From: Haloferax sulfurifontis ATCC BAA-897
GTDB taxonomy: Archaea > Halobacteriota > Halobacteria > Halobacteriales > Haloferacaceae
DNA: 64,000 nucleotides
Reading direction: 5' to 3'
Assembly: GCF_000337835.1 (NCBI RefSeq)
Contig: NZ_AOLM01000004.1
Coordinates: 186,001 to 250,000, forward strand
Shown: in pieces, positions 1,240 through 28,916 of the stretch
Layout of the letters: each line of letters begins with the position of its first letter
Position numbering within the stretch: the stretch's first letter is position 1
Translations under genes and position numbers: made by a program
Notes under the pieces: model-generated
Seen by the model: only the letters and a program-made list of their open reading frames with translations
Told to the model about the DNA's origin: nothing
The model's database searches: none

Positions 1240-3912
1240 TCAGTAGCTCGTGATATCCCGATCCCCGAGCACGCGCGTGTACGTGTCGTCGCCGGTCACG
1301 TCGGCGAGCCGACCGGCGAGCTCGCGCAGGTCGTCATCGACGTCCCACTTCTCGACGTAGTTCTGGACCGCCTGCCCCTTCTCGTAGCGGTAGCGGAGGA
1401 ACTGGAGCTTGTCGAGGTTCGAGAGGTGGTCGCCACCGTCGCCGTTGACGCGCTCCTGGATGTACGCCTGGCGTTTCTCGTTGTCCCAGGTGCCGAGTTC
1501 GAAGCCGTCGTCTTGGTTGTACAGGCGCATCTCCTTGAGCTCCTCCGGCGTGGCGTTCGTCCCGCGACAGAGCTTGTTGACGTCGTCGTAGGAGACGTTC
1601 GACGTGTCGAGCAGGTCGATGAACACGTCCTCGACGCCGATGTCGCTGGCCTCCTGGATGATGCCGTAGATCTCCTGGACGACCTCCTTCGCGGACATGA
1701 TCTCGCCGTCGCGCTGCACCTTCCCATGGTGCTTGGAGTACTCGCGGAAACATGCACCCATCTCCATCACGCCAATGTCGCCGCGGGAGAGGTCGCGGTT
1801 CTCTTCGAGTTGCTGGCGAGTGCGTCGAGCCGTGCGGTAAATATCGCGGCGGAGCGATTTCCACGAGGCAGGCTCGGTGTCGTCAATGGGACGAGCGACG
1901 ACGACGATGTCGAATGAGACGGCTTCGCCACCGATGAACTTGTTAATGTCTGCCGTAATTGGGTACGTCGCTGTTACCTCGAAGCCGACATTACAGAGAG
2001 ATTCGAGGAGTTCACCCCATGATTCGGAGTCGCTGTGGTGGTAGGTGAACGTGAGTGATCCGTCGTCCTTGAGTGCGTGCTTGATGACTGCGAATGCCTG
2101 TTCGAGTTCAGATTCAAAGTCCTCAGCGGTTTTCTCTAGGTACGGGTTCGTGACAATGGACTCTGCACGAGGTGTTTTGTCTTGATTAAACCCAGGGTAC
2201 TCGTCCTCCAACAAAATCTTCTGCCAGACGTAGAAGTAATCAGATACCTCTGAGTAGATTATGTTGTCGTAGTAGGGTGGGTCGGTAATGACGGCATCAA
2301 ATTCGTCCTCGTAGTCCAGACTACGCATATCCCCTTGGTGAAGCGTGACGTTGTTTCCAATAGGGGTGTTGAAGGGTTCTGATTCTATCGTTTCTCCAGC
2401 CTCAATATGCCTCTCAGTAGGGTTGCGAGCATACTCAACTGCTGTCTGGACTTGATCAAACATAGCCGTAAATGTCCCAGATCCGGAACGGGTACCCCAC
2501 ACGTTGTTTTCTGCAGGATATAGTGGTGGATTGAATGAATTTGTCCGAGTGAGATTGTCGATATGGCCCCGAGAATTGTGGTACCCGACCATCATAGTGT
2601 TATATCGAAGAGAGTCGGTAGCCGCTATCAGGAGAAGCTCTTTCAGATTCTGGTCTTCAACATCGCCAATAGCTTCAAACAGTTTTGCGAGTGACAGGAG
2701 CTGGCGTGAATTGAACATATCCTGCCATTTTTCCAAGCCATGTTGGAACACGTCGTTTCCGCTTACAGACGATGCAGCGGTAATCGCTCCCTCAGGGATT
2801 TCCTCATCAGGGACATACTTGTGAAGTCCATCATTTTCTTCCCACTCTTTTACAGCTTCGTTGAACAGGTCAATATCCTCCTGTTCAGACTGTTTGTATC
2901 CTTTATACTCGCTCTTCTCTTCTCCCGCATCTTCACAGTGAGTACAGTAGTACTCAACTGCGTATAGCCTCAGATCCGGTTTTCCTTGCTCTTGAATTGC
3001 GTCAGTAATTCCGTATTTTTGCCCGCAGTCGGGACAGTTGTACTTCCCACCCCGCGAGACGTTCCCTTCTTTCGGGACGAACCCATGGCCACAGTCATTA
3101 CAAACACTCTCTGACTGCCAGTCGTCCACCAGCGTCACCGCGCCGCAGTCCGGACAGAGGACATTGTACTTGTCGTCGTTATCATAGCGACCTTTCGCCA
3201 CGCGATAATCCTTGAATAGCGGAACTGTGTGCCCACAGGAGACGCAGTCCAACTCTTTTACCCAAAGATTGTACATCACATCCGCGTCGTGGTCGCCATT
3301 CGGACAGGGCGTCTTGTAGTACTGCGTAATCTCGTCGGCGACGTCCTCTTTCACCTGCTCGAAGGCTTCCTCAAGCTCTTCGACGTCGGTCTGACCAGCT
3401 TCGAGTTCCTTCTTCGTGACGAACCACGCGACCGGGTTCAGATCGTTTCCGACGACCTCAGCGCCGAAGCGCGACGCCTCGACGAGCGACGTGCCGCCGC
3501 CCATGAACGGGTCGAGAATCTTCTTGTCCTCGACGCGGACGTCCTTCGGGTAGAGCTCCCAGAGGCTCTCCGGATCAGTCATGTCCACGCGTTCCAGCAG
3601 CGATGCCACGTCGAGGTCGGATTCACCGTCGGCGTCGTCGCCGTAGGACGCGAGCGTGCTTCCCTCGTGGCCAGGCTCGAACACCGAGACCTTCTCTGGG
3701 TCGTCCAGCAGCGTGTAGAGCGAGATAGTACGGAAGACACAGCCGAGGCGTCGCGCCCACCACTTGTGCATCGTGTAGATCGGGCGGTAGTACATCTTCG
3801 CCCGGCCCTCCTTCTCGGCGATCTCGTTCACGCGCTCGATGGGGAACCCGCGCTCGATAGGGAGTTCCGTCCGCTCCTGCCGGCCCTGTGAAGATCCAGA
3901 TTGCTCAGACAT
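1240..3912 (-). CDS. DUF1156-type adenine-specific DNA methylase with zinc ribbons
   Basis: A 890-residue protein. The N-terminal YYRPIYTMHKWWARRLG segment (residues 41-57) is typical of DUF1156 proteins (COG1743). Residues 134-140 (DPFMGGG) form the SAM-binding motif and residues 544-547 (DPPY) the catalytic motif of amino-methyltransferases. Between them lie five CxxC pairs (near residues 223, 253, 271, 293 and 323) that would form zinc ribbons. The expected activity is N6-adenine (or N4-cytosine) methylation of DNA. In known defence islands this family partners the DUF499 ATPase and a helicase, and both occur at 13.6-18.8 kb here. Base composition is uneven: both ends use G/C-ending codons, while roughly 1,860-3,050 is clearly A/T-richer, as if the central region had been exchanged. 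The substrate sequence is unknown. Confidence 0.88.
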   Translation of the reverse strand: MSEQSGSSQGRQERTELPIERGFPIERVNEIAEKEGRAKMYYRPIYTMHKWWARRLGCVFRTISLYTLLDDPEKVSVFEPGHEGSTLASYGDDADGESDLDVASLLERVDMTDPESLWELYPKDVRVEDKKILDPFMGGGTSLVEASRFGAEVVGNDLNPVAWFVTKKELEAGQTDVEELEEAFEQVKEDVADEITQYYKTPCPNGDHDADVMYNLWVKELDCVSCGHTVPLFKDYRVAKGRYDNDDKYNVLCPDCGAVTLVDDWQSESVCNDCGHGFVPKEGNVSRGGKYNCPDCGQKYGITDAIQEQGKPDLRLYAVEYYCTHCEDAGEEKSEYKGYKQSEQEDIDLFNEAVKEWEENDGLHKYVPDEEIPEGAITAASSVSGNDVFQHGLEKWQDMFNSRQLLSLAKLFEAIGDVEDQNLKELLLIAATDSLRYNTMMVGYHNSRGHIDNLTRTNSFNPPLYPAENNVWGTRSGSGTFTAMFDQVQTAVEYARNPTERHIEAGETIESEPFNTPIGNNVTLHQGDMRSLDYEDEFDAVITDPPYYDNIIYSEVSDYFYVWQKILLEDEYPGFNQDKTPRAESIVTNPYLEKTAEDFESELEQAFAVIKHALKDDGSLTFTYHHSDSESWGELLESLCNVGFEVTATYPITADINKFIGGEAVSFDIVVVARPIDDTEPASWKSLRRDIYRTARRTRQQLEENRDLSRGDIGVMEMGACFREYSKHHGKVQRDGEIMSAKEVVQEIYGIIQEASDIGVEDVFIDLLDTSNVSYDDVNKLCRGTNATPEELKEMRLYNQDDGFELGTWDNEKRQAYIQERVNGDGGDHLSNLDKLQFLRYRYEKGQAVQNYVEKWDVDDDLRELAGRLADVTGDDTYTRVLGDRDITSY

Positions 3913-4107
3913 TATTCAGTATGTAGAAGCGATTACCCAGGAGCCCCATAAGTGTGCGTTCTCTTCAGTGACCGACGATTGGAGGACGCCGGTCGGTAGG
4001 GGAGTTGGTCCTGTTGAGCAGACGGGCTATGCAAAACGTTCACTCCACGGGGAATGGAACTGCGTAAGCTCGGACGATCTACCGCCTGCCGCTCTGAAGA
4101 ACGTGAG

Positions 4108-7100
4108 CTATCCTTCGAAGCCTGTCGATTCCCGATGGTACTGGAGGTACGTAGAACTCGGATACTTTGTCTCGTCGTCCGGGAGGAGGATCGATTCGCC
4201 GTCGTATTGGCTGAACTCGTCGTAGCCCGGAACGGACTCCCAGTCGCGGACCGAGACCTCGTACTCGTCCGTTACCGTGATCCAACCGTTCTCGAAGGCC
4301 CAGTGGTGAAGCCGACATAGCGCGAGGCCGTTCTGAACCGAGTCGGGACCACCGTCGCTGGCCGGTCGGATGTGTGCGGCCTCGACTTCGGGGCTTCCTC
4401 GCTTCGTTTCTCGGTGACTACCGCAGACAGCACATGTCCGACCGTACGCTTCTCGAACAGACTCTCGGAACTTGTTGTTACGGGCAGTTCGCGTCGTGAA
4501 GATTCGTCTCTTGGCTACCGATTCCGGAACATCCCCCTCGTTGGGATTCACCGACTTCGGATCTTCCTTTGCGGACGATTGGCCGTCGATGTTGTTTTCC
4601 TCCAGCGTGGATTCAGACGAGGTCTCCGATTCGGCTGGGAGGTCACCTGAGCTGTTGGAACTCTGGTTGGGCGTCGATGAAATTCCCGGAGAGCGACGCG
4701 TGGGGCCTGCGAGAGGTTCGGACCCTGGTCCCTCTTCTTCGCCCCCCTCGACTTCAGTCAGGTCTTCATTCGGCCTACCCTCGTTTGAGGATGGTTCCTC
4801 GGGAGCTCGACCACCATTTATCGTCTCGCTTTCGCCGCGGTCATCTGAGTTATCTTGCTCTGGTCCATCGACGTCGTATTGACTAGCCACTCCATCGGAT
4901 TGTATCTCCGACTGTTTGTCCTGCTCCGAGGCCAACCGCTGTCGCTCGATGTCGAAGGTGTCGAGGTATGTGTCTAGGTATGGATCCCGCTTTCCTAGAG
5001 ACCCTGAGAGGATCTCTTGTAACTGCTCCTCGTCTGTCGCGGTGAGAGACAGCTCGTTAGGGAGACGGCGGGTGAAATCTTGGAGTGAGTCAGTCCCACC
5101 AGTCCGTCGAATCTGTTTTTCACCCCGGTCAACGTAGCTCTGGACCTCGAACTCTTCAGTTATCGGCCTTCCATCAACAGAGAGGTATCGGCACTTGATC
5201 TCCTCGTGCTGGATGAGTTGATACTCTGAGTGCATTCGCTGAAGTTCGTCGCAGGCATCCTCGTATCCCTTCTCAAGGCAGAAGCTATATGCGACGACGA
5301 ATAGTTGAGCGAACTCTTCCGCTTCATCGGTTGTCTCTTCTGAGCTCGCCGCGTTGTGCTCCGTTAGTGTGAGAGTGGTCTCTTCGACGAGGTCGGTCAA
5401 ACCTAGCCGCTTCCATAACGCGGCTATCGTTTCGTCGGCGTAGTCTCGTGCTCCGTAGGGCCTCACGACCTGTGACTCGATATCCGAGTAGAGGTGTTCG
5501 CGGATTTGTTCGTCGTGACAGTAATATCGAAGCTGACCGAGTGGGACTGTTTCATCCGATAGCGTCATCAAAGACGCCTGTGACAGTTGATTTCGGAGAT
5601 CTGTGTCCAGTGCCTCAATCGAAGAAACGTCTCCCGTCTCAGAGACGAGCCTTCGAACCAGTCGTCGCCAGATGCGGTCTCGTTCGTCCTCTTCTTCCCA
5701 GGCGGTGTCGTCAAAGTAGGCCAGGTAGTCATTCAAGCGTAATGAGTCTCGAACTCCGATGGTCCTGAACAGCTCTTCGTATCGCTCGTACTCCGACTCG
5801 ATTGAGATGATGTACGACCCGAGGTTGGAACCTGTCCAGACGACTTCCGGTGGGGATCGAAACTCCGGATCGGAGTTCTCGACGTAGATGAAGCGAGCGT
5901 CGGATAACGACTCGTGGATCTCCTTTTCGACCTCAGAGTCGTTGTCCCGAAGTTCCCCTAGTAAGGTATCGAGACGGCTAGTCAGCTCCGTTCGGATCGT
6001 TGTAGGCTCACGACCTTTCCACACGCTTCGTGCGTTGGAAAGCTGTTCCAGCGTCGCTCCGAGTCCGAGCTGTGTGTTTACACCCAGTGGTCCGAGGTAT
6101 GGGGCGTCCTCCTCGGCGACGTACGTGTGAGGTGGTTGATTCGCTGTCGCCGCGTTCTCGACGAGGAGGGTTCGTGGGCGAGCTAACGTATTGTCCTTCG
6201 TGAGGCACCATTCAGTGTCCCTGAGACGCTTTGCGAACGTTGAGTAGTTTCCAGTCTGCTTCTCTCTGACTCGGTATGCTTTCCGCCTGACTACGTAGTA
6301 TAAGGGCCGATGGACCTTCTCTCCGTAGTGGTCCCAGTGTTCTTGTAGCATCTGTCCGAACGCGGTGGCACGATCAAGCGTCGGATCTTCTCCTTCCTCA
6401 AATGCAGTCAAGACCTTTTCAAACCAGACTGATGGGACGAAGTCTGAGAGTGCGTACCGTTTGTTTCGTCGAAACCACGCGTCCTTCTGCCCGCCTTTCT
6501 TTGTCGAGTCGGGCATCTCCCAGTCGGTATCGACGCTCTGCTCGGCAAGATCTGAGAGCTTCTCTTTTACCTCCGACCTGTGCTCGAAGAACGTCCGTTT
6601 TCCTCGCGGAAGCTCGTTGACTGGGAGCAGATCGAGCACACCGAATTTAGTGAGGAATTTCTTCCATCTTACCGGCTGCTCTCCACCGGGTAGGTCTAGG
6701 TATTCCTCGGTTACGAACGATGCACCCAATTCGGAGAGTACGTTTTCAAGGCTGTACGCCGGTTCGTCTGCGCTTGAGGTGACGAGATATGAGTCCGGAA
6801 GGAACAGAGCGTTATCTATAGGATCGACGTAGGATGACTCACCATCGTTGTCTCGCGTTCTGAACTTTAGTTCGACGTGCTTCTTTGCTGCAGTCCATCG
6901 ATTACGGTTGGAGAAGATGAACTCCAGATACGTGTCTAACGTTTTGTCATCAGTACTCTCCACTGCTTCGAAGGCGTCAGAGACGACGTCTCTCAGAACG
7001 GTCTCCGCTCCGATAGTTTCGATCCCCAGCACGTCAGAGTAGAGACATCGTGCCTCGTCAAGAACTTCTGAAGGGTCTGAGGGGTATCCATCGGGTAACG

Positions 7101-8787
7101 TGTCTATGGTGAGTTGAACGAATTGAAACTCGTCTTCGAAAATTTCGTAGGCCGACCTACCCTGTGCTGGCGGAAGTACCGCTTCGGTCGGGGTACTGGC
7201 GACTGCGATCCGTTCACCGCTTTCGAGAGGGACTATTGGCGTTTCTTTGATGACACGTTCGAACTCGTCTCGGTCGTCCCGTTTACTACTGAATCGGCTG
7301 ATGCTCCTGTATTCACTGTCCCAGTAATCCCAGAGTGCAGCGGCAAGTACGATCAGATGAGCAGTGTCCGCATCGGAGAATCCCTCCCGAACCGAAGCTT
7401 CGCTCTCCTTCAGCAATTGTTCGATAGAAACGCGTGTAACGAAGCTTTGCTCACGTAAGGTGCTGATCAGGGCCTCGTCCAATACGCTGGAGGGGTATTG
7501 GATGTCCCTTCCTAGAAGGTATCCGACGTCAGATTTTACAAACACTCGCTCGACATGGGGTGAAGGAATGACGATACGCGACGGTCTGTGATATCTCTCA
7601 TCGTCTCCGGGTATCGACTTTTCAGTGCGAATCGCCTCTTCTACTGCCTCTTTCGAGGCTTCTGTGTGATCTTGACCGTGTTGTACTGATGGCAGCAATC
7701 GAAGGTGACCCACTTGAGGTCTCGGACGGTCACGATAGTACTTGATGACCTTCCGAAATGCGTCACCAACTCGCTGAAGAAGCCACTGGTTGTACCGACC
7801 ATCCCTCTGTGCTAACGACTTCCGGGTCGGCTCCAGAAGGAAGTCTGCGTGGACGTCGAATGGGAATCCCGAGCGTTCGTCAGTCGGAAGAAAGTTGTAC
7901 AGATAGCCGTCGCTTTCCTCGGATACCGGCGTGTGGGACTCATCGACTTCGAACGAGATGGTTACCGAGATCGGAGACTCCTTCACTGACGCAGTATCCT
8001 CGATTCGCCGTTCGTCGAGCAGTTGTTGAAGAACCTCCGAGCTAGGCCTTTCTTCAGTAGTGAACGACAGACGACGCTCCAATAGAGTCCCGTCGCGGTA
8101 AATCACCTGTTCAGGAGACTCGGGTGTCGATTCCTGCCGATATACATTCGTTTTCTCTTCCTGTTTGACCTCGATCTTAGAGACGTTTTGAAGGTACGGC
8201 AGAAGCCGATGCACGTTCTCGATTCTCTCTTCCAGCTCCGTTCGCTCTTCAACCGAGATGTCGTCTTTCAGAGGCAGTTCGATTTCGGTCCCGTTGATCG
8301 GCTCAGAGGTGTCGAGAATTTTGGGGACGGTTAGCCGGTCGGAGTCGAACTCAAAGTGGAAATACCCCGACTTCACTCGCGGGTTGTCCGAGATACTGAA
8401 AACCGATTTGAAACCCAGTCCGAAATGACCGATATACGCTGGATCGTGCTTCGTGCTTTCTCCGGCGGCGCACAGGGTGTCCACCTCTTCAGCTTTCATT
8501 GGGCGGCCGTTATTACGGACACAGAGTGTATCCTCGGTAAGTGTGATCTGCACCGTGTCACACACCTGGATATCGTCTGCATTCTGAATCAATTCCGGCA
8601 GGACCTGGGATGGGTGGTTCAGTTGTCGCTGGATGTACTCGTAGAAGTTCTGCGTTCGATTCTTCCGGCGCTCAAAATCGTCTTCGACAATTCGGAGCTC
8701 CTGTTCACGAATATCAGCTAGCAGGCGACGAGCTTCCTTTGCCGAAGTGGGGTGACTTTCGAGATCAATTCGGGACCGAAGGTTCAA
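4108..8787 (-). CDS. HSP90-like (sacsin-type) ATPase fused to HNH endonuclease
   Basis: A giant protein of about 1,559 residues. The N-terminus carries a GHKL/HSP90 ATP-binding fold: ELIQNADD (65-72), NNGRP (92-96) and GHFGLGFKSVF (120-130), the arrangement of sacsin-like ATPases. A long middle part has no motif I recognise. A low-complexity acidic, Ser/Glu-rich linker precedes a C-terminal HNH nuclease at about 1450-1505, with CAVCG, the catalytic EAAHI and LCRLHHWAFENG. ATP-driven control of DNA cleavage is a reasonable inference. There is no ATG upstream of the conserved domain; I place the start at TTG 8787 because a TATA-like CCTTATATTT lies about 27 nt upstream. The frame stays open to 9186, but that part overlaps the divergent restriction gene. 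Gene and neighbour are divergently arranged. Confidence 0.82.
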   Translation of the reverse strand: MNLRSRIDLESHPTSAKEARRLLADIREQELRIVEDDFERRKNRTQNFYEYIQRQLNHPSQVLPELIQNADDIQVCDTVQITLTEDTLCVRNNGRPMKAEEVDTLCAAGESTKHDPAYIGHFGLGFKSVFSISDNPRVKSGYFHFEFDSDRLTVPKILDTSEPINGTEIELPLKDDISVEERTELEERIENVHRLLPYLQNVSKIEVKQEEKTNVYRQESTPESPEQVIYRDGTLLERRLSFTTEERPSSEVLQQLLDERRIEDTASVKESPISVTISFEVDESHTPVSEESDGYLYNFLPTDERSGFPFDVHADFLLEPTRKSLAQRDGRYNQWLLQRVGDAFRKVIKYYRDRPRPQVGHLRLLPSVQHGQDHTEASKEAVEEAIRTEKSIPGDDERYHRPSRIVIPSPHVERVFVKSDVGYLLGRDIQYPSSVLDEALISTLREQSFVTRVSIEQLLKESEASVREGFSDADTAHLIVLAAALWDYWDSEYRSISRFSSKRDDRDEFERVIKETPIVPLESGERIAVASTPTEAVLPPAQGRSAYEIFEDEFQFVQLTIDTLPDGYPSDPSEVLDEARCLYSDVLGIETIGAETVLRDVVSDAFEAVESTDDKTLDTYLEFIFSNRNRWTAAKKHVELKFRTRDNDGESSYVDPIDNALFLPDSYLVTSSADEPAYSLENVLSELGASFVTEEYLDLPGGEQPVRWKKFLTKFGVLDLLPVNELPRGKRTFFEHRSEVKEKLSDLAEQSVDTDWEMPDSTKKGGQKDAWFRRNKRYALSDFVPSVWFEKVLTAFEEGEDPTLDRATAFGQMLQEHWDHYGEKVHRPLYYVVRRKAYRVREKQTGNYSTFAKRLRDTEWCLTKDNTLARPRTLLVENAATANQPPHTYVAEEDAPYLGPLGVNTQLGLGATLEQLSNARSVWKGREPTTIRTELTSRLDTLLGELRDNDSEVEKEIHESLSDARFIYVENSDPEFRSPPEVVWTGSNLGSYIISIESEYERYEELFRTIGVRDSLRLNDYLAYFDDTAWEEEDERDRIWRRLVRRLVSETGDVSSIEALDTDLRNQLSQASLMTLSDETVPLGQLRYYCHDEQIREHLYSDIESQVVRPYGARDYADETIAALWKRLGLTDLVEETTLTLTEHNAASSEETTDEAEEFAQLFVVAYSFCLEKGYEDACDELQRMHSEYQLIQHEEIKCRYLSVDGRPITEEFEVQSYVDRGEKQIRRTGGTDSLQDFTRRLPNELSLTATDEEQLQEILSGSLGKRDPYLDTYLDTFDIERQRLASEQDKQSEIQSDGVASQYDVDGPEQDNSDDRGESETINGGRAPEEPSSNEGRPNEDLTEVEGGEEEGPGSEPLAGPTRRSPGISSTPNQSSNSSGDLPAESETSSESTLEENNIDGQSSAKEDPKSVNPNEGDVPESVAKRRIFTTRTARNNKFRESVREAYGRTCAVCGSHRETKRGSPEVEAAHIRPASDGGPDSVQNGLALCRLHHWAFENGWITVTDEYEVSVRDWESVPGYDEFSQYDGESILLPDDETKYPSSTYLQYHRESTGFEG

Positions 8788-8912
8788 GATACGAAACCGT
8801 GACAATGTGTAAATATAAGGCTTTCCGAGGCTCGGTAGTCGAGTTAACAGGTTCCATTGAATTTCTAATCGGGCTACATTTATACTGATGTTCAGAGAAT
8901 CTCTGCTCACCG
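8788..8912. promoter_or_regulatory. Divergent promoter region between HNH fusion and GmrSD gene
   Basis: A 125-bp AT-rich spacer separates two divergent nuclease genes. On the minus strand CCTTATATTT (8811-8820) sits about 27 nt before the proposed TTG start at 8787. On the plus strand TTTATA (8879-8884) sits about 30 nt before ATG 8913. Both spacings suit archaeal leaderless transcripts. The arrangement suggests joint expression of the two genes. Confidence 0.5.
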
Positions 8913-10751
8913 ATGAAAGCGGACACGCTCGATCTAAAGGACATCTTTCGGAAAGACACACGGTACGTCGTTCCACGATTCCAGCGGCCGTACGTGTGGA
9001 AGGAGGAGGAACACTGGCAGCCCCTGTGGGAGGACCTCCAACTCGTCGTGAACGAGCTGATGGACCGGCAGGCGGGTGCGGATACCGATCTCGAACGACA
9101 GGAGGCCCAACAGGACACCTCTCCGCATTTCTTGGGTGCCATCGTCCTCGATCAGCAATCGACGCCGACGCAGAAGCTGGAGACACGTGAGATCATCGAC
9201 GGGCAACAGCGGCTGATCACGCTCCAAGTCCTGTTGTCGGCGACACATTCCGTGGCGAAGGACTTCGATGATGACGGGTCTGCGTCCTTGGTCGAGAAAC
9301 TGATGTACAACGACAAGGACCTCACGAGGACGGAAACAGACCGACTGAAGGTCTGGCCCATCGAAGCCGATCAGGACGCGTTCATCGACGTCATGACGCT
9401 CTCTGACCCGGAGTCAGAGCACGCAGAACTCGACGGCGACGACAACCTGGAGGAGTGCTTCCGGTACTTCAGGGACGAAATCCAAGAGTGGGCGGAGTCC
9501 GGCGAGGAATCTCCCGAAGACCATCTCGACGCGCTCGTCACGACGATGTGGCACCTGCTCCGTGTCGTCGTTATCGACCTCGAATCCAACGACGACGCAC
9601 AGGTGATCTTTGAGACACTAAACGCCCGTGGGACGCCCCTACTCGCTGCCGACCTGATCAAGAACTACCTCTTCCGGGAGGCCTCCGTTCAGCACAACGA
9701 CCCTGGTGAACTGCACGACAAGTACTGGAAGCAGTTCGACGAGGACGAGTGGCGCGTCGATGTCTCTCAAGGGCGTCTTGACCGTCCGAAGATAGACGTG
9801 TTCATCATGCACTGGCTCACGATGGAGATGAGCCAGCAGGTTCGCGCGAAGAAGCTCTTCCCGGCGTTCCGGAAGTACCTCGACAGGACCGACCACTCTG
9901 TCGAGGAGATCGTCAAGGACATCGACTACTACGCGTCCATCTACGAGACCATCTCTGAGCCAGACCGTGGGTCTCGGGAGGGAATCTTCTTCCATCGGCT
10001 GGACATCCTCGATACCACGACACCGTATCCGGTTCTCCTCTGGATCTTCGGCCATGAAAATATCCCGAAGGAGCAGCGCGTGAAAGCCGTCGAAGCAATC
10101 GAGAGCTGGCTGATGCGTCGGATGCTCTCCCGACTGACGTCGAAGAACTACAACAAGATCTTCATCGAACTACTGGACGAACTCAAGGAGCGAGACGACG
10201 AGCCCGTCGGCGACGTCGTCGTCGAGTTCTTCCGGAGCAAAGAGGGTGAGAGCGACTACTGGCCTGGCGACGAGAAGTTGACTGACTCTATGGTCAGTAT
10301 GGAGTACTGGGCCGTCATCAACCAGCGACGCCTCAAGATGGTGTTCGCAGCCGTCGAACGAGAGTTGCGGAACACCGGATACAGCGAAACGGTGGAGTTC
10401 ACGCAGAACCTGGAGATTGAACATATCCTTCCACAAAAGTGGTCCACACACTGGTCGCTCCCCGGGGAACGACCTGCGGAGGTAGAACGGATGGAGCGGG
10501 ATGAGGCTAAAGATCGGATCGGAAACCTAACGATCCTCACCGACAAGCTGAACCCCTCTATTTCGAATGCAGCCTGGGACGACAAGCGAGAGGCGATTCA
10601 GGAGCACACCGTCCTGCGGCTGAACAAGCACCTGATAACGAACTGGCCTGACGAATGGAACGAGAAAACGATTGCCGAGCGTGGCGAGTGGCTCGCCGCT
10701 CAAGCGAGTGAGGTTTGGCCGGAACCAGACTCGGGATACTGGGATGAATAA
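8913..10751 (+). CDS. GmrSD-type restriction endonuclease (DUF262-DUF1524)
   Basis: A 612-residue fused protein. The N-terminal DUF262 domain shows VPRFQRPYVWK (20-30), HFLGAIVL (72-79) and the hallmark IIDGQQRLITL (94-104), which bind and hydrolyse nucleotide in GmrS/DndB-like proteins. The C-terminal DUF1524 domain shows IEHILPQKW (near residue 500) and RIGNLTIL followed by an N-x(5)-W/K pattern, the His-Me-finger nuclease of GmrD. Known members are type IV enzymes that cut modified (for example glucosylated) phage DNA; some use broader targets. It is divergent from the HSP90-HNH gene and embedded within the DUF1156/DUF499/helicase block. The start is ATG 8913 with a TATA-like box 30 nt upstream. 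The motifs look intact. Confidence 0.9.
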   Translation: MKADTLDLKDIFRKDTRYVVPRFQRPYVWKEEEHWQPLWEDLQLVVNELMDRQAGADTDLERQEAQQDTSPHFLGAIVLDQQSTPTQKLETREIIDGQQRLITLQVLLSATHSVAKDFDDDGSASLVEKLMYNDKDLTRTETDRLKVWPIEADQDAFIDVMTLSDPESEHAELDGDDNLEECFRYFRDEIQEWAESGEESPEDHLDALVTTMWHLLRVVVIDLESNDDAQVIFETLNARGTPLLAADLIKNYLFREASVQHNDPGELHDKYWKQFDEDEWRVDVSQGRLDRPKIDVFIMHWLTMEMSQQVRAKKLFPAFRKYLDRTDHSVEEIVKDIDYYASIYETISEPDRGSREGIFFHRLDILDTTTPYPVLLWIFGHENIPKEQRVKAVEAIESWLMRRMLSRLTSKNYNKIFIELLDELKERDDEPVGDVVVEFFRSKEGESDYWPGDEKLTDSMVSMEYWAVINQRRLKMVFAAVERELRNTGYSETVEFTQNLEIEHILPQKWSTHWSLPGERPAEVERMERDEAKDRIGNLTILTDKLNPSISNAAWDDKREAIQEHTVLRLNKHLITNWPDEWNEKTIAERGEWLAAQASEVWPEPDSGYWDE

Positions 10752-10832
10752 AATAAACCCTTTCGTTAGCTCCAATAGAGTCTCGGCATCTAGCGACCCA
10801 ACCAGTTCTAAAGAAATACGAGATAGACGGAA

Positions 10833-11567
10833 TTAACCGTCTACTCTGGAGTGGGGAAGAACCTCTTCGGTCACAAACCGTGTGAACTCCTCAGTGTTAA
10901 TCTGGCCACGGCCGTTCTGATCACGATACAACTCAACGTACCCGCTGGCGGTTATCGTACCATAGAGGTCTCGTTCTTCCCAGTCTAGGTGATCAAACGT
11001 GAACTGGACACGCTTGTCTGGATCTGTACGTCGATCTTCTGGAAGATTCTGCCCCTCATCTGCTACGAGACATATCGGGCCATACTCGCCCTCTTTGTCG
11101 TCGCCCCATTCAAGGCGGGACTCTGCATCCGGATGTGCGTTGTCAAATGATTTGATGTCTATCTGGGCAGATTCAGTATTTGCTCCGGAAATCGATTCAA
11201 ATACTGCACGGGCCGACTCACATTCGGTTCGGGCAGTTATCAGGATCTGATTGCAGACGTGAATGAACTGTGTCTCTTCGAGAGTGCGCTCAGTTCCTTC
11301 GTCGTCGATCACTGGACGGCCATCCTGATTTAACCGTTTGTTCTTGAATTCGACTAGATCTTCTCGAAGTATTTTACCTTCCTGGATAGCTGTACCGCTC
11401 ATCTCGCCATCATCAACAGTGAAGTCCAGAGTTCCCTGTGCGTGACTATTGGATAGCTGTACTGACGAGAGCAGGGTCTTCCCCTGATCGTGTCGCTTTA
11501 TCGGGGCGGTATCATTGGAGATGCCCCGTCCTTCTTCGGTGATTATGTTGATCGCACCTGATTTCAT
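10833..11567 (-). CDS. Unknown protein, 244 aa
   Basis: An acidic soluble protein with no motif I recognise. It starts at ATG 11567 (MKSGAINIITEEGRG); the 37 in-frame codons upstream look non-coding. The sequence has predicted alternating beta strands, a helix around ETQFIHVCNQILITARTE, and an Asp/Glu-rich C-terminal half ending in a helix. No transmembrane segments are visible. It is convergent with the GmrSD gene, with 81 bp between stops, and faces away from the winged-helix membrane gene. Composition matches the other low-GC island genes. A defence accessory role would be guilt by association only. Confidence 0.6.
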   Translation of the reverse strand: MKSGAINIITEEGRGISNDTAPIKRHDQGKTLLSSVQLSNSHAQGTLDFTVDDGEMSGTAIQEGKILREDLVEFKNKRLNQDGRPVIDDEGTERTLEETQFIHVCNQILITARTECESARAVFESISGANTESAQIDIKSFDNAHPDAESRLEWGDDKEGEYGPICLVADEGQNLPEDRRTDPDKRVQFTFDHLDWEERDLYGTITASGYVELYRDQNGRGQINTEEFTRFVTEEVLPHSRVDG

Positions 11568-11931
11568 TGTGGTCAGTTGACTACATGCTGGAACGGGAGC
11601 AAGGATGGGGGGCACTTGGCCTAAACCAACAGTCGGTCTTAGGTCAAGGGAGCACGTACCCCTAGTTGCGAGAGCCACCCTGGCTCCGTCCCGTCTCTCT
11701 CCGACTCGGGATGGCCACCACGCCGACCATCTGTCCAGGATCCTCGGCTGGGGTCTCTCCCGGTCGGGGATTGGCGTTCTTCAGCACCGGAATCACACGT
11801 GCATCAGTGTCCGGTTCGTTGTCTTCCTGTCTGTGTATGGGGAGTATCCGGTAGACATTAAAACGAATAGTTGGATTAGCCCAACAAGAAGGGTTGTTGG
11901 CCTACCCAAACCACCATACGGCATCGCTACA
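11568..11931. other. Intergenic stretch, no gene recognised
   Basis: About 360 bases between two divergent unknown genes. It starts GC-rich and becomes AT-rich near 11850-11930 (for example GACATTAAAACGAATAG), which may hold the promoter of the downstream gene. I see no RNA gene or long repeat. Confidence 0.4.
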
Positions 11932-12600
11932 ATGTCTGAGCGCCAAACCAGCGAAGAACACACGAATCAAGATGCGACTGACTCCGAGATCTTCGCCGTT
12001 TTGCGTAGAGTCAAAGAGGAAGACGGAATCCCGGCGTTAGTCACATCCCAATTCAACGATATCTGGGAGTACGATTACTCAAATGAAGGCCTACATAAGC
12101 GCCTTATGGCACTTCATGAAGACGGCATATTGGGCCACATGAAAGCGAGCAACCGCCATTTTTGGTGGTTATCGTCAGAAGGAGAGACGGGCGACACATC
12201 GGTCTCAAGTCTTGAGGAGTTAGTTCACTATGATGAACTCCCGGCGGAGAGATTTACGGAAGAGAAAGCGCGAGAGATAGCTGCTGAGAAGATTCCAGGA
12301 TTCAAAAAAACCGCCTGGGAACGGATGATCGAGACAGGGGATTCGTTTATGAGAGCCGGTATTCTGGTCTTTTTCCTCAGCCTGGGTATTTTTTCTATTG
12401 AGCAAAATTTGATTCCGCAACCTCTCGTTGCAATTGTACTGTTTTTGGGTATGGTGTTCATCTCCTTATCTGGTGGGTACTATCTCGTCGGATTCACTGG
12501 GGGTAAAGCACAGAAGGCGGGATACGCCTCTAAGGAGCCATTTGATGAGAAAACACTATTCCAGTACGCTCTTGTAACGGAGATTGTTGGTGAGTCATAG
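11932..12600 (+). CDS. Winged-helix membrane protein, 3' end altered by an insertion sequence
   Basis: A 222-residue frame starting at ATG 11932. Residues 1-90 look like a winged-helix DNA-binding or regulator domain (SEIFAVLRRVKEEDGIPALVTS, then HKRLMALHEDGILG). Two hydrophobic helices follow (MRAGILVFFLSLGIFSI and LVAIVLFLGMVFISLSGGYYLV), so it should be anchored in the membrane with the helix domain in the cytoplasm. The final codons EIVGES and the TAG are read from the left inverted repeat of the IS at 12582, so the native C-terminus has been lost or replaced. Function unknown; haloarchaea have many such small wHTH membrane proteins. Confidence 0.6.
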   Translation: MSERQTSEEHTNQDATDSEIFAVLRRVKEEDGIPALVTSQFNDIWEYDYSNEGLHKRLMALHEDGILGHMKASNRHFWWLSSEGETGDTSVSSLEELVHYDELPAERFTEEKAREIAAEKIPGFKKTAWERMIETGDSFMRAGILVFFLSLGIFSIEQNLIPQPLVAIVLFLGMVFISLSGGYYLVGFTGGKAQKAGYASKEPFDEKTLFQYALVTEIVGES

Positions 12601-13555
12601 TGCAGTTTCGAGGATGGTTTTGAGCGCTTCTTCCCCCGGTTTTCGGAACACTTCGCGGCGGAGCTGAAACGCTCGGAAATACGGTGTGAGTCTGTCTTTA
12701 GAGACGCCTCGATGCGGCGAGAGCCACCGTCGCGCCAGCGACGCGTGGCTCTCGCAGGTGTTCACGTGAACGTCTCCATCAACGTACTCGCCGTCACCAT
12801 GGACGACGTATTCACGAGTGAATGCGTCGTCCTCGTCAAGCGGTTTATACGCCCGAAAGCCGTCAGTATAGACGGTCAACGACTCCTGCTGGCGGTCGGC
12901 CAGCAGGAGTCGAATCCGTGATTCGGTCGCTGCTTTTGCCGGGATCACGTACCGTTTCCCGCTGCCACGATCTGCGAGAACAAACACAGGGGGCTTGTCT
13001 TCGTCGTATGTTCCACGTCCGCGCGTGGACAGGCCACGCGAGCGCGACATCTGGTCGCGCTCGCGGCCCTTGAGCCCTGCTTTCACGTAGAATTCGTCGA
13101 TCTCAATCGGGCCTTTGAGCTGTAACCGAGGCGCGTCCAGCGCTCGCAGAAAGCGCTGGATGCGCCGGTAGATCGTCTTGTACGAAACGCCGATCTCTAC
13201 GTCTAACTGCCTGAGACTCGTGTTGAAGCGGATATACGTGTAGACCGCGAGAAACCACTTTCTGAGCGCCACCGCAGAGTGTGCGAAGACCGTGCCGGTC
13301 TGGTCGTTGAACGTGCGGTCGCAATCCTTACACAGATACCGCTGAAACACGCGATAGCTGCCGTACCGAATCACAGATTCGCCACGGCAGCGTGGGCAAT
13401 AGACGCCGTCACGCCAGCGAATCTGTGCCAGCAGATTCGCGGCGCGACGCTCCGAGACGAACGTCTTGATTGGCATCATCGTTCGTCGGGTGACGCGACC
13501 GCGTCACCCTTGCCTGCTGTGACTTCCAGCTACTGCTGAGAACTGACCAACAATC
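12582..13555 (-). mobile_element. IS1595-family insertion sequence (ISH4-like)
   Basis: An element of about 974 bp. Its ends are imperfect inverted repeats: GATTGTTGGTGAGT at 12582-12595 and its counterpart at 13542-13555, which share 13 of 14 positions including the outer ten. The single transposase gene fills the interior, with its stop codon at the inner edge of the left repeat. The family normally makes 8-bp target duplications, but the flanks (GTAACGGA left, CTCTACCC right) do not match, so the insertion is old, rearranged, or the true ends differ slightly. The left end lies inside the upstream winged-helix membrane gene. Confidence 0.75.
12595..13479 (-). CDS. IS1595-family transposase
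   Basis: A 294-residue transposase. The N-terminus has a zinc ribbon of the form CPRC (near 30) and CKDC (near 55), then a helix-turn-helix. The catalytic DDE/N-type core is visible: the first Asp in the segment GPIEIDEFYVKAG, the second in LTVYTDGFRAYKPL, and the final residue near HVNTCESHASLARRWL. The combination of zinc ribbon and EIDE motif is that of IS1595/ISXO2-like elements, common in haloarchaea. It is complete and lies within matching terminal repeats, so it may be active. The second Met (residue 2) is an equally good start. Confidence 0.88.
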   Translation of the reverse strand: MMPIKTFVSERRAANLLAQIRWRDGVYCPRCRGESVIRYGSYRVFQRYLCKDCDRTFNDQTGTVFAHSAVALRKWFLAVYTYIRFNTSLRQLDVEIGVSYKTIYRRIQRFLRALDAPRLQLKGPIEIDEFYVKAGLKGRERDQMSRSRGLSTRGRGTYDEDKPPVFVLADRGSGKRYVIPAKAATESRIRLLLADRQQESLTVYTDGFRAYKPLDEDDAFTREYVVHGDGEYVDGDVHVNTCESHASLARRWLSPHRGVSKDRLTPYFRAFQLRREVFRKPGEEALKTILETAL

Positions 13556-13645
13556 CTCTACCCAAGAGCGATTCCAGTATATTTGGGACCAAGTCCAAGG
13601 CAACGAACAGGAGTAGAGTAATCTGGGTCTGATACGCTTCTGTGA

Positions 13646-16600
13646 CTACTTCTGGAAGCTGATCTCGATCTTCAGACTCGACGCCTCGTCGGGCATCCGC
13701 TCGAACAAATCCTGCACCTTCGTGTAATCCTGCTCGGACCGTAACGTCAAGCTGACCTGCGTACGCTCGACGTCGGCGGTTCCCTGAAGAGCACCGGGAA
13801 CACCCTCTCGTTCGGGCAGCATGAACGTGACGTCGCCGTATTCGACGTTTCCCGTCTGGTGGTTGTTCCGCCACTTGCTCCGCATCGCGGCGACGTCGTC
13901 GCCGTTGAACTCGAAGCGCCAGGTATCAGCCTCGGTATCGGCCTTTCGGAACGGATAGCCGGGCACCCAGTCGGACGCTTTCTCCGAGCCGGTCGTGTTG
14001 ACCACGTACTCCGGTTCCTCATCCTTCCCGATGTTCTCAAGCAAGTACGTCCGCACCATGTACTCGGTAACGCTACTGTCGAAGCGGTCGGTGACCTTGT
14101 TCACGGTGAACTGGTCGCCCGGTTCCAAATCCTCGATGTACGCCAGGATCTGGTCGCCGATCCGATCCGGTACCGTCGGGACAATCTTCACCGTCGTCGG
14201 GTCGCGGTCGCCGAGCGATTCGAGATAACGACCTCCGGCCTCCAGCACGTAGTCGTCTACGAGGAACTCGTTCACTGCCTCTCGTGCGACGGACTCCGTC
14301 TCGTCCGGCGGGAGGAACACCGCTTCGTCCGCACGAATTTCGCCGATGATCGTGTCAAGGTTCGCGTAGCCGTCGTCGTCGATGTGCGCTTCGATTCGGT
14401 CCACGAGAGAGGACGCGCCGATGACCGTCGCGCTCCCGACATCGCGGACCGTGGCGTCGGACTGCGGCTTGTCGAGGATCTCATTGCCGCGCACGATGAC
14501 GTACTGATCCTCGCGGTTCAGGCGACCGATAGCTCGCATCACGACGTCGTGGCTGTCGCCGTCGATCCAGATCTCGCCGTCTTCAACGAGCTCCAGTTCA
14601 AAGTCACCGATGTCGAGCGCGGTCGTCCCGCTCCCGAAGCGCTGGCGTAGCTCCTGTTCAACATCATCGACGCCCCACACGTCCACGTCCTCCTGTTGGA
14701 CGAGCACGGTGTCGAGCGAGCTGCCGGAGAGGTCGTCACGGAACCCGCCCGAGTCACGCGCCAGTACCGGCTTCCCATCGAGCGCTTCGACTGTCGCGTT
14801 CAACACGTCGTTCGCGCTTCCGGGGATCGGGAACTCCGGGTCACGGAGGAACTGTTCGTAGATGTCTTCGACAGAGATTTCCCCGCGTCGATCCAGGAGG
14901 TCTTCAGCGATGTCCCAGACGTGTGATTGAAGATCGAACGGGTCAGCAGCCGCTGAATCCCCGATATTCGTCGCATCGAGTTCGGCGTCGTCGAGGACGA
15001 AAACATCGAGGTCCATCGGCTCCACTTTCGCCCACTCGTCGTCGTCCAACAGGTTGTCACCGTCGAGAACCTCACCGTACAGGAGTTGTAGCTCTTCACG
15101 GAGTTCGTTCTCCTCCTGCTCTTTCATACTCCGAATCGACGTTCGGATCTCGTCATCAAGCGACTCATCCGCGAGCACTTGTCGCGCACCCTCGATGTAC
15201 CGCGCTTTATCAATATACCGTGTACCGGACTCGATGGCCTTGTCGCCCGAGGGCTGGACGAACACGAGCGTGTTGCGCCACTCTCGTCCACGACCGTCGT
15301 TCGTGATGACCTTCTTCACTTCTTCCTGCGTCCACTGGCTGTCCTTCACGACGACCTTCACCCCCCGGTCGTCCGGAATGTCCCGCATATCGTTGGTACG
15401 GAATCCGACGGGGTGGGCGTTCGATCCGAAGATGTCCGTGATGAAGTCCGCGATCTCTGCCTTCGCCGACGTTTCAGACACGTCAACGGCCGCGTTCCGG
15501 ATGAGCGCGTTCGGGTTCTGCCGGTCGCGGATGGCGTACTTTCCGTTCAGCTTGTGGAGGTGCCACGCGACGCCGTGCAGCCGTTCGAGATTGAGAACGA
15601 CGTCGGAGACGAGGTCACCCGTCTGGTAGGCACCCATCACGATCTCCGATACCTCTGCACCCTCACCTTCACTGGGCTTCAGCGAGTAGAGCAGAATCGT
15701 GTTCAGAATGCGACGACCGTGGGGCACTTCGTCCGTGTCGACACGACTTTTGATGTCACCCGTGGCGGCGTTCAGCCGTTCGTAGTTGATCTTCGCCAGC
15801 TCGTCCTCGAACTCAATGGCATCGATGTCCCCGTGAGTGATCAGGTCTGTCTGATCCTGCATTTGCAAGAGGACTTTAGAAAAGAGGTAGATCATCCCCC
15901 GCGTGTTCTGGTTCCCCTCATCGGCGTAGTAGCGCGTCTCAAGCGCGTCCAGAAGCACTGGGTGGAACGGATAGAGGTCGTGCATCTCCGATAGCAGGTC
16001 GTCGGGTAAATCGACGTGTCCCTCTGCCTGATCGTACGCATCGAAGTACCCGTTGACAATCTCGCGGGCAGCGCTCTCGTCCACAGAGTCGATCAGGCGG
16101 TGACGAAGGACTTCCCGCTTGTCCACCTGGTTGTTCATGTTGACCTCGACCGCCTGTTCTCGATTCAGAATGTCGTGAACCTCGGATCCCTCACGGAGCA
16201 CCGAGACGATGGTGTAGAGTTCGAGGTCCGAGAGCGCGGTCGATTCGAGTAGCGACTGGAGGAACGCCTTGTTCGCGCTCTTGCGGTCGCCCTGCAGTGT
16301 GTCGAACCAGTCTTCCAGTTCGTCCACGAAGAACGCGACCGTGTCGTCGCCGACGGCCTCCTGAATCGTCTGCATATCGGGATATCCACCCGACTCGAAC
16401 GTCCCCGGATCGTAATCGAGGGCCTCGAAGAACGGCTCCCAGAGGTACTCGTACTGTTCGTTCTGCATCGCTACCGTGATTGGCGTCGCCGACTCCGGAA
16501 GCGCGGCGTCGAACCCTTCGACTGATTCACCCGCCCACCTGCCTGCTGCCGCAGGATCATCGAAACAGTGGTACAGTGCCACCATCTGGTGCGACTTCCC

Positions 16601-16861
16601 ACTGCCGTACGGTCCATAGAGAATGTGCGTCCCACGTGGATCATCACCAGTCAACGAATCACGGAGGATCGAAAGGGCCTCTCGAAGGCCCTGCGTCATC
16701 AGCGTCCGCTCGAAGAAAAGCTCCGCATCAGACTCGAATTCGTCGTCGTCGTCAACGTTGTAGAGCTTTACCTGACCGTCGATCTGCCCCTCCTCTCGAA
16801 GCTCACGGCTGAGGGTTACCGTATCTTCGAGTGTGGTTGATAAGGATCCCGTCTGTGCCAT
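13646..16861 (-). CDS. DUF499-type AAA+ ATPase
   Basis: A 1,071-residue ATPase. Walker A is GPYGSGKS (83-90) and Walker B FFVDELEDWF (177-186), as in DUF499 proteins (COG1483). The long C-terminal part contains no further catalytic motif. Proteins of this family are found beside DUF1156 methylases and helicases in defence islands, where an ATP-dependent role on DNA or in assembling the complex is assumed. Here the methylase is about 10 kb away at the left, and the helicase starts divergently 144 bp upstream. I chose ATG 16861 rather than the earlier 16894, because a TATA-like TTTATT at about 16892-16897 overlaps the latter and is properly spaced for the former. Composition is uniformly GC-rich, unlike the low-GC unknown genes nearby. 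Confidence 0.85.
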   Translation of the reverse strand: MAQTGSLSTTLEDTVTLSRELREEGQIDGQVKLYNVDDDDEFESDAELFFERTLMTQGLREALSILRDSLTGDDPRGTHILYGPYGSGKSHQMVALYHCFDDPAAAGRWAGESVEGFDAALPESATPITVAMQNEQYEYLWEPFFEALDYDPGTFESGGYPDMQTIQEAVGDDTVAFFVDELEDWFDTLQGDRKSANKAFLQSLLESTALSDLELYTIVSVLREGSEVHDILNREQAVEVNMNNQVDKREVLRHRLIDSVDESAAREIVNGYFDAYDQAEGHVDLPDDLLSEMHDLYPFHPVLLDALETRYYADEGNQNTRGMIYLFSKVLLQMQDQTDLITHGDIDAIEFEDELAKINYERLNAATGDIKSRVDTDEVPHGRRILNTILLYSLKPSEGEGAEVSEIVMGAYQTGDLVSDVVLNLERLHGVAWHLHKLNGKYAIRDRQNPNALIRNAAVDVSETSAKAEIADFITDIFGSNAHPVGFRTNDMRDIPDDRGVKVVVKDSQWTQEEVKKVITNDGRGREWRNTLVFVQPSGDKAIESGTRYIDKARYIEGARQVLADESLDDEIRTSIRSMKEQEENELREELQLLYGEVLDGDNLLDDDEWAKVEPMDLDVFVLDDAELDATNIGDSAAADPFDLQSHVWDIAEDLLDRRGEISVEDIYEQFLRDPEFPIPGSANDVLNATVEALDGKPVLARDSGGFRDDLSGSSLDTVLVQQEDVDVWGVDDVEQELRQRFGSGTTALDIGDFELELVEDGEIWIDGDSHDVVMRAIGRLNREDQYVIVRGNEILDKPQSDATVRDVGSATVIGASSLVDRIEAHIDDDGYANLDTIIGEIRADEAVFLPPDETESVAREAVNEFLVDDYVLEAGGRYLESLGDRDPTTVKIVPTVPDRIGDQILAYIEDLEPGDQFTVNKVTDRFDSSVTEYMVRTYLLENIGKDEEPEYVVNTTGSEKASDWVPGYPFRKADTEADTWRFEFNGDDVAAMRSKWRNNHQTGNVEYGDVTFMLPEREGVPGALQGTADVERTQVSLTLRSEQDYTKVQDLFERMPDEASSLKIEISFQK

Positions 16862-17005
16862 CTTGATACTTAAACAAACCTCAGTGGCACCCAATAAACA
16901 CTATGGTCCCGTGAACGTAGTCTGAGACGCAACAACAGTACAGCGTGCAGATCCGTGATTGTCGGTCACAAAACGTATTTCACGCACACCTGTTTCTACG
17001 AACGT
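16862..17005. promoter_or_regulatory. Divergent promoter region, DUF499 ATPase and helicase
   Basis: A 144-bp spacer between divergent starts. On the minus strand TTTATT (about 16892-16897) is roughly 33 nt before ATG 16861. On the plus strand CGTATTTCA (16974-16982) is about 28 nt before ATG 17006. Both fit leaderless archaeal promoters and would allow coordinated expression of ATPase and helicase. Confidence 0.4.
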
Positions 17006-18760
17006 ATGAGCGGATACGACCTCGTGGATGTCGAGGTCACACACGGATCTGCTGACGATTTGCTTGATTCGTTGTCTGAGGATAGCACTGATGGAGACCA
17101 TCTACAAAGCATCCAAGCTGTCCGTCTCCAAGCCGGGCAACCTGACTCCGAACTGCGGTCGTTGAAGGAGTTGGACGAGAACTCCGTTAAGCTACTGGAA
17201 CACCAGGTGGACGCGGCCTATCGTGCCCTCTTCGAGATGGACGGAAAAGCACTCCTTGCTGACGAGGTCGGGCTCGGAAAGACCATCGAGGTCGGGATGA
17301 TTCTCAAGGAGATGCACTTCCGTCAGACGGACGAATCCGTCCTCATCCTCACTCCTGCACAGTTGGCCAAACAGTGGCAGGCGGAACTCCGTGAGAAATT
17401 TGGACTCGACTTCGTCTGCAACTACGACGACGAGTTCGAGGACTTCGATGCGCACGACTACATCATCGCAAGCATCGACACTGCGAAGAGCGAGAGACAC
17501 CGTGAGACCGTCCTCAACCGCGACTGGGACGTTTTAGTACTCGACGAGGCTCACTACGTCAAGAACGAAGAGACGGACCGTTATGACCTGATAGACCGAC
17601 TCTCGTACAACTACGCGTTCTTCCTGACGGCGACGCCGATTCAGAACGAATTGACGGACCTGTACAACGTCGTCTCGCTACTCCGCCCTGGACTGTTCGG
17701 CACACGCGACGTCTTCCACCACTACTTCGTGAACAGCAATCAGGAGACGCTGGTGAATCGAGGCGAACTACAGGATCGTCTAAACAAGGTGATGATCCGG
17801 AACCGACGGGAAGATACAGATATCGACTTCACGGACCGGACAATCGACACGCGGACCTTCGATCCCAGCCCGAAGGAACGCGAACTCTACCAGGCAGTCT
17901 CTGACTACGTCAAAGGTGCGTACAGTCAAGATCAAGGCCAGAAGCTCGTGCTGATGCTCCTTCAGAAGGAGGTTGTCAGCAGCCCGGTCGCGCTCAAACA
18001 GACTATCGAGAAGCGACTCTACGACCAGTCGGAGCTCACACATGCCGACGAATTGGAGTCCATTCTGGAGCTTATCGATAACATCGATACAGTGACCAAA
18101 CAGGAGCGACTCCTGGACATCGTCGAAGAAGCACGCGAAAACGTCGAGATGGGGAGAGTCATCGTCTTCACGCAGTTCCGAGCAACTCAACAGCAGATTC
18201 TCGATAGACTCGCCTTGGAGGGGTACACAGTACACGCGTTCCACGGTGGACACTCCAGCAGTGAGAAGGAGCAGATCGTCAAAGACTTCGAAGAGGAAGG
18301 GGGAATTCTCGTTTCGACCGACGCAATGAGCGAAGGGCGAAACTTACAATTTTGCAACATATTGGTTAATTTAGATTTGCCGTGGAATCCGATGCGCGTC
18401 GAACAGCGCATCGGGCGTGTACACCGAATCGGACAGAAGCGAGACGTATTCATCTTCAATATGGCGTTGAAAGATACCGTTGAAGAGTACGTACTGGAAC
18501 GTTTGTACCACAAGATCAATCTTTTCCAGCAGAGCGTCGGAGAACTGAGTTCGATCCTAAGCCGGCTGGAGGAGTCTGGAACGAGCTTCGAGGACGAAAT
18601 ATTCGAGCGCCTGGTGAATGCTGATTCCGAAATCGATCTGGAGAATGATTTCGACGCAATGGCCGTTGACTTGCAAGAACAGCGCGAACTTGCTGAGAAG
18701 CTAGAAGAGTTCAACAGCGGTGTCTTCGACGGGTTTGACCTGGGGGAAAGCGATGACTGA
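17006..18760 (+). CDS. SNF2/HepA-type DEAH helicase
   Basis: A 584-residue superfamily 2 ATPase. Motif I is DEVGLGKT (86-93), motif II is DEAH (180-183), motif III is LTATPIQN, and the C-terminal RecA-like domain has VIVFTQFRATQQQ, VSTDAMSEGRNLQ and the motif VI RIGRVHRIGQ. This is the Swi2/Snf2 helicase-like family (RapA/HepA group, COG0553), which translocates on double-stranded DNA. It starts at ATG 17006 with a TATA-like box 28 nt upstream, divergent from the DUF499 ATPase. Its stop overlaps the next gene by 8 bp. Together with the DUF1156 methylase and DUF499 ATPase it completes a defence-type set. GC content falls after about 18,330, near the end of the gene. Confidence 0.9.
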   Translation: MSGYDLVDVEVTHGSADDLLDSLSEDSTDGDHLQSIQAVRLQAGQPDSELRSLKELDENSVKLLEHQVDAAYRALFEMDGKALLADEVGLGKTIEVGMILKEMHFRQTDESVLILTPAQLAKQWQAELREKFGLDFVCNYDDEFEDFDAHDYIIASIDTAKSERHRETVLNRDWDVLVLDEAHYVKNEETDRYDLIDRLSYNYAFFLTATPIQNELTDLYNVVSLLRPGLFGTRDVFHHYFVNSNQETLVNRGELQDRLNKVMIRNRREDTDIDFTDRTIDTRTFDPSPKERELYQAVSDYVKGAYSQDQGQKLVLMLLQKEVVSSPVALKQTIEKRLYDQSELTHADELESILELIDNIDTVTKQERLLDIVEEARENVEMGRVIVFTQFRATQQQILDRLALEGYTVHAFHGGHSSSEKEQIVKDFEEEGGILVSTDAMSEGRNLQFCNILVNLDLPWNPMRVEQRIGRVHRIGQKRDVFIFNMALKDTVEEYVLERLYHKINLFQQSVGELSSILSRLEESGTSFEDEIFERLVNADSEIDLENDFDAMAVDLQEQRELAEKLEEFNSGVFDGFDLGESDD

Positions 18761-28583: not shown

Positions 28584-28916
28584 GGATTCCAGTCGGGTAG
28601 CGAACCGGTCACCGACAATCGACTGGCCCGGGATGAGAGAACGAACGGGCTTGGCGCTGTGTCTGTTGAGGAAGTATCGCTCAGGGGACGACTGAGGCCG
28701 GTTGAAACTCTCGTGTTCGAGAGGCGAACCGATGCCTGCAGCGCCCATGATTTTGCGAGGAACCTCGCGACGAGCGACGGCTCAAGCCGAACGCACCGGC
28801 TCACGTTCTGAGCTCACTCCCCCTTGGGGTTTTACAATCCGAACTCGCGCCGCGCCGAAACCCCGATTCTTCTAGGCACAACCGAGTTAGGTACGGCTCA
28901 CCTCATACACACCCAC
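28584..28916. other. Right boundary of the accessory region, non-coding
   Basis: About 330 bases between the second integrase and the first backbone gene. GCGAGG-AA-CCTCGC (28755-28768) and CCCCTTGGGG near 28829 are short palindromes. I found no tRNA that could serve as an attachment site. Composition changes here from mixed to GC-rich. Confidence 0.4.

Follow-up and report, generated by a model that had tools for sequence, protein, structure and literature searches.

A TmtA-type protein of Haloferax sulfurifontis with an HNH domain where related proteins carry NOV_C: a candidate ATP-gated nuclease in a haloarchaeal defence island

What does an Hsp90-like ATPase do with a nuclease domain at the far end of its own chain? 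Such a chain is encoded by the tmtA-HNH gene, on the minus strand at 4108..8787 of the window (a stretch of 64,000 nucleotides from Haloferax sulfurifontis ATCC BAA-897, contig NZ_AOLM01000004.1). The earlier note had placed GHKL-type ATP motifs and a full HNH motif in one frame of about 1,560 residues, and this was borne out: the frame is a single intact gene free of internal stops, it encodes 1,559 aa plus a stop codon, and profiles match at both ends. The plus strand of the same interval holds many stop codons. The open reading frame opens at 9186; we assigned the start to the TTG codon at 8787 because in the alignment the full-length homologue from Halorubrum hochsteinianum begins at this very position and likewise uses TTG.

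This homologue is encoded on a finished plasmid (NZ_CP098416.1) and its sole annotation is "HNH endonuclease" (WP_008580622.1). Over their whole length the two proteins are 56-58% identical; identity is highest in the GHKL domain (81%), intermediate in the HNH domain (63%) and the body (55-60%), and lowest in the linker (34%). Codon changes at positions 1 and 2 were 3-7 times fewer than at position 3 in the GHKL domain and about three times fewer in the HNH domain. This comparison indicates that both ends are under purifying selection, unlike the linker, which drifts. Given the full-length homologue and the constraint on the first two codon positions, we conclude that the ATPase-HNH frame is not a product of chance.

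The GHKL/sacsin-type ATPase domain spans residues 51-180 (8248..8637, minus strand). The N-terminus matched the NCBIfam entry P_loop_sacsin (NF047352) with 77.8 bits (cut-off 50) and the Pfam families SACS (1.9e-9) and HATPase_c (2.1e-5). It carries the motifs ELIQNADD (65-72), NNG (92-94) and GHFGLG (120-125), with the N box (E65, N69) and the GxxGxG lid (G120, G123, G125) of the GHKL superfamily. Residues E65, N69, D72, K113, G120, G123 and G125 were invariant in 41 aligned ATPases, an invariance that is partly built in, since both N box and lid served as search patterns in our collection scan. One of the two patterns sufficed for each locus, and conservation of the other is therefore informative; each was conserved in 84 of 85 aligned rows. 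The G1 motif of Hsp90 contains a conserved Asp. This G1-box Asp of GHKL ATPases is absent here, N92 occupying its alignment column, and across the 85 family rows the column holds His in 60 and Asn in 23, which makes the substitution a family trait. ATP turnover is therefore not assured.

A structure model of residues 1-1200, predicted from 41 sequences, had a mean pLDDT of 74.9. A model predicted from the single sequence reached a pLDDT of 35 and was set aside. The best solved matches of the multi-sequence model in Foldseek were Hsp90 and TRAP1 (E 2.7e-11), with query-normalised TM-scores of about 0.2, so the likeness to Hsp90 covers part of the model only. We assign this part to the N-terminal and middle domains, the predicted middle-domain-like region being placed at residues 181-410 (7558..8247, minus strand) with an approximate border. 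The rest of the model found no counterpart among the 50 solved structures listed as matches. Viral structure matches were mostly Hsp90-like, RIIA and topoisomerase proteins.

Residues 411-1285 (4933..7557, minus strand) form a body without a named domain, and residues 230-1280 matched no Pfam family even at E 1. A domain search of the middle region, which the earlier note had proposed as a check, was nevertheless productive: the PADLOC TmtA profile PDLC03968 scored 527 bits for residues 230-1280. The total score was 762 bits, of which 733 fell to residues 1-1280 (profile 26-1199), a full match to ATPase and body. Judged by this profile, the two belong to the known TmtA family of suspected antiviral proteins and are not an orphan scaffold. 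The Tiamat system reportedly owes its name to the 2022 work of Millman et al. TmtA is represented in PADLOC by models PDLC03964-03972, and Tiamat is its system name (PMC13321033). The literature found on it consists of surveys; our searches returned no paper explaining how TmtA-type giants work. The window protein thus resembles TmtA in its ATPase and its body of about 1,100 residues, whereas its nearest TmtA relatives carry a NOV_C/DUF3883 tail and it carries HNH_2. A profile match to TmtA can conceal a different effector.

Body and tail are joined by a linker at residues 1286-1420 (4528..4932, minus strand), rich in Ser, Gly and Pro and as acidic as the earlier note had described it (34 D/E against 8 K/R among 135 residues). 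The HNH_2 nuclease domain follows at residues 1421-1559 (4111..4527, minus strand), with a Pfam HNH_2 match at residues 1452-1505 (1.9e-12); Pfam gave no NOV_C match in the window protein. The catalytic residues H1472, N1486 and H1495 are all present, as are the zinc-binding CxxC/CxxH residues C1452, C1455, C1491 and H1494. The catalytic triad was invariant in 24 of 24 aligned HNH domains; with the invariant ATP-site residues of the 41 ATPases, the conservation that the earlier note had suggested looking for was found at both ends. Stand-alone HNH proteins of haloarchaea (L003, L004, L006) share 50-56% identity with the domain, and proteins of this kind are the likely donor of the tail. Haloarcula hispanica pleomorphic virus 4 (KY264020.1, 2289-2669) also encodes an HNH domain, which shares 48% identity with the tail.

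Related HNH_2 domains occur in SBD-SRA-HNH and TagI-type nucleases (NF045808, 6ghs), enzymes that depend on phosphorothioate or methyl marks. The window protein might accordingly be a type IV-like enzyme whose body recognises methylated or phosphorothioated DNA and whose HNH domain cuts it. The similarity on which this reading draws is a match of 95 bits to NF045808 (cut-off 180), restricted to the HNH part, and one of 4e-6 to TagI (6ghs). However, Pfam detected neither an SRA nor a sulfur-binding domain, a giant ATPase stands in their place, and the HNH domain is closer to the stand-alone haloarchaeal proteins. We consider this reading very improbable.

Three haloarchaeal relatives share the body of the window protein. 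By blastp, similarity covers residues 12-1417 in L135 (G062, P0010; 32% identity), 8-1321 in L146 (G103; 27%) and 28-1354 in a Halobaculum protein (P0009; 22%), and all three tails are NOV_C/DUF3883 above the Pfam cut-off. Similarity to L135, the closest NOV_C relative, ends at residue 1417, that is, at the end of the linker. DUF3883 is listed as a REase domain in a 2013 HEPN survey (PMC3710099), and by eye the NOV_C tails of the three relatives contain E...D...ExK-like residues. In NOV_C proteins the match to the TmtA profile PDLC03968 reaches profile positions 1449 and 1458 (of 1486), whereas for the HNH protein of Halorubrum it ends at 1335; the window protein has a weak stretch that continues to 1396 and adds about 29 bits. 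In a tree of the body, the HNH clade (window, Halorubrum and a truncated MAG protein, L034) is nested inside the NOV_C-tailed relatives. The HNH clade, the node joining it to L135 and the node of the whole group each had a support of 1.0; the order of L146 and L032 had 0.27. Because the HNH version is nested within the NOV_C version, we conclude that the nuclease module was exchanged. The exchange shows where the sensor gives way to the effector, and as a natural replacement by a well-understood nuclease it predicts DNA cleavage as the output. It suggests a family of ATP-controlled nucleases whose cutting modules are interchangeable.

Among 69 related C-termini from many phyla, we found 19 NOV_C, two HNH (the window and Halorubrum type proteins), two transglutaminase-like, two NucS_C and one caspase-like tail, the rest being unmatched. 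In the wider family NOV_C is therefore frequent (19/69) without being general, and the TmtA-type scaffold appears as a chassis that takes several tails. The caspase-like and transglutaminase-like tails imply that tails need not be nucleases. They would also suit an abortive-infection protein, in which an Hsp90-like sensor responds to protein or DNA stress by having the HNH domain destroy host nucleic acid, as would the resemblance of the modelled N-terminal and middle domains to Hsp90; nuclease-like tails are commoner (19 NOV_C, two HNH and two NucS_C), and we regard such a suicide function as unlikely. We would give even odds to the broader proposal that the TmtA type serves in general as an ATP-gated sensor chassis to which different nuclease tails can be fitted; the haloarchaeal clade would then be a natural REase-like-to-HNH swap marking the border between sensing and killing.

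Our preferred reading, to which we assign a probability of roughly 0.6, is that the window protein is a Tiamat-like defence protein of TmtA type whose usual NOV_C/DUF3883 tail has been replaced by HNH, and that it acts as an ATP-gated DNA nuclease. It draws together the TmtA body match, the NOV_C relatives that diverge at the linker, the nested HNH clade, the intact residues, purifying selection, the Hsp90-like fold and the setting in a defence island with GmrSD, DUF499, DUF1156, SNF2 and integrase genes. In such a protein, the large body would meet a sign of infection, which might be a viral protein or DNA that is foreign or altered, and the ATPase and middle domain would dimerise and close upon detection. 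ATP binding or hydrolysis would then license the HNH domain, on its acidic tether, to cut DNA and so halt the virus or plasmid. The linker may allow unrelated nuclease modules to be attached to one sensor. That the ATPase might license DNA cleavage had been proposed in the earlier note, and the exchange of one nuclease-like tail for another of unrelated fold on a shared scaffold is consistent with it.

Fusions of GHKL ATPases to nucleases are known from other systems. For the proposed mechanism, the closest tested precedent is VcSduA, a Shedu protein of phage defence with an N-terminal GHKL ATPase and a C-terminal PD-(D/E)xK nuclease, of which the variants E27A (ATPase) and K557A (nuclease) have been tested (PMC12137116). 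However, the nuclease of VcSduA is DUF4263, for which Pfam gave no match in the window protein, and VcSduA lacks the large TmtA body. In paraMORC3, GHKL is fused to a REase fold, and further restriction systems likewise couple a GHKL protein to a nuclease, fused or adjacent (PMC2292703); its description as a GHKL+S5 core with a REase-fold nuclease sets paraMORC3 apart from the window protein.

The gene lies in the first 28 kb of the window (1-28750), where GC is about 55%, against about 69% beyond. Two tyrosine integrases (21981-23087 and 27573-28748) lie near the GC border; for these two reasons we regard 1-28750 as an acquired island. Around the gene are a DUF1156 DNA methyltransferase of BREX-related/Hma-like type (1240..3912, minus strand), a GmrSD (DUF262 + DUF1524) type IV restriction protein (8913..10751, plus strand), a DUF499 ATPase (13646..16894, minus strand) and a 601-aa SNF2 helicase (16955..18760, plus strand), the start codons of the last two being provisional. 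An IS1595-type transposase (12595-13479) also lies between DUF499 and DUF1156. By their domains, DUF1156, DUF499 and SNF2 form a haloarchaeal BREX-related/Hma-like set of the kind described in PMC12839542, and other haloarchaeal plasmids carry the same set, with DUF499 proteins 78-96% identical.

The window protein could therefore be the restriction subunit of this neighbouring system, with DUF1156 methylation sparing self DNA. Its gene sits between DUF499 and DUF1156, co-directional with DUF1156 at a gap of 195 bp; domain scans found no nuclease domain in the SNF2 helicase; in Haloglomus an MTaX1-HNH enzyme occupies the same slot; and a sister clade of the ATPase is the fixed neighbour of bacterial Hma genes. 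Against this, near-identical systems in Haloglomus, Salinigranum, Haloprofundus, Halapricum, DL31 and Natrinema lack the gene, and the Halorubrum copy has no such system beside it but stands in a different setting, near genes for a helicase/PD-(D/E)xK protein and a cytosine methyltransferase. We hold a restriction subunit to be improbable. The slot itself (window 3913-13645) holds variable cargo elsewhere: MTaX1-HNH, an AAA ATPase with a partner, DUF262 enzymes, TrlF or almost nothing. The TmtA-HNH gene is thus probably one cargo of a variable slot and no obligate part of the island.

The slot appeared as a hotspot for nuclease or defence modules at L114, L115, L116, L117, L119 and L124. Four other haloarchaeal plasmids (L120, L121, L122, L123) carry two DUF1156 methyltransferases around a single DUF499 gene, and three of the four encode nearby a protein with a weak match to the ATPase and a DUF3883 annotation.

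For Hma and the related DUF499-centred BREX-related Type-1 systems, three core genes are described (PMC8565338, PMC12839542); neither Hsp90 nor sacsin is named in the main texts of the two papers, and GHKL is likewise absent where searched. We found a separate clade of 37 sacsin-like GHKL ATPases of about 1,400 aa (L040, L042, L045-L047, L049, L050, L055, L059, L060, L065, L068, L069, L089, L095, L101-L104, L111 and others; L080 and L081 are identical in sequence), of which 36 lie beside HmaA, HmaB or HmaC genes in the genome collection, some neighbours being hidden by contig ends. The order HmaA-ATPase-HmaB-HmaC is frequent, and most of the genes point the same way and overlap or lie close together. 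Three of the 57 HmaA records from plasmids had an ATPase of this kind, in each case within 2 kb of HmaA. Since nearly all these ATPases stand beside Hma genes and few HmaA genes have one, this looks like a four-gene sub-variant of Hma, of which the ATPase is a possible fourth subunit. The window protein shares with Hma the flanking DUF1156, DUF499 and SNF2 genes, but it falls outside the Hma-associated clade, to which its own group is sister, and its presence beside such genes is not constant. We therefore rejected it as a fourth subunit of the Hma-like system next to it. L080/L081 had apparent matches at both ends and was likewise rejected as an ATPase-HNH fusion, its HNH, HmaA and ATPase being separate genes. 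On this actinomycete MAG (L080, 205-9313) the HNH gene, HmaA and the sacsin-like ATPase are consecutive, and so contain the parts of the window protein unfused.

The complete ATPase-HNH protein occurred in two of 127 haloarchaeal genomes (G000-G126), those of the window and of Halorubrum hochsteinianum, and the whole gene in one record among 72,556 plasmids. A second genome of the same species as the window lacks both the gene and DUF499. Searches of viral contigs and a genome scan with the window protein as lone query gave no matches, and phage records yielded distant or HNH-only matches. In a literature search we found no paper describing an ATPase-HNH architecture with a TmtA body. The earlier note had not recognised the architecture as a characterised system, and no such characterised family was found; its scaffold is TmtA, already in a defence database. 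The scaffold is thus known, the HNH tail on it is new, and the HNH version is rare. Homologues without HNH, which that note had named as counter-evidence, exist in the wider family, yet both motifs are kept inside the HNH clade. Two further genomes held partial copies. In G077 this is a fragment at the end of a contig, apparently identical with the MAG sequence L034; in G095 it is truncated, with a frame of 158 aa. An unannotated, decayed copy, 75% identical to residues 1-127, lies on the Halobacterium sp. DL1 plasmid CP007061.1 (L033, 8001-8381).
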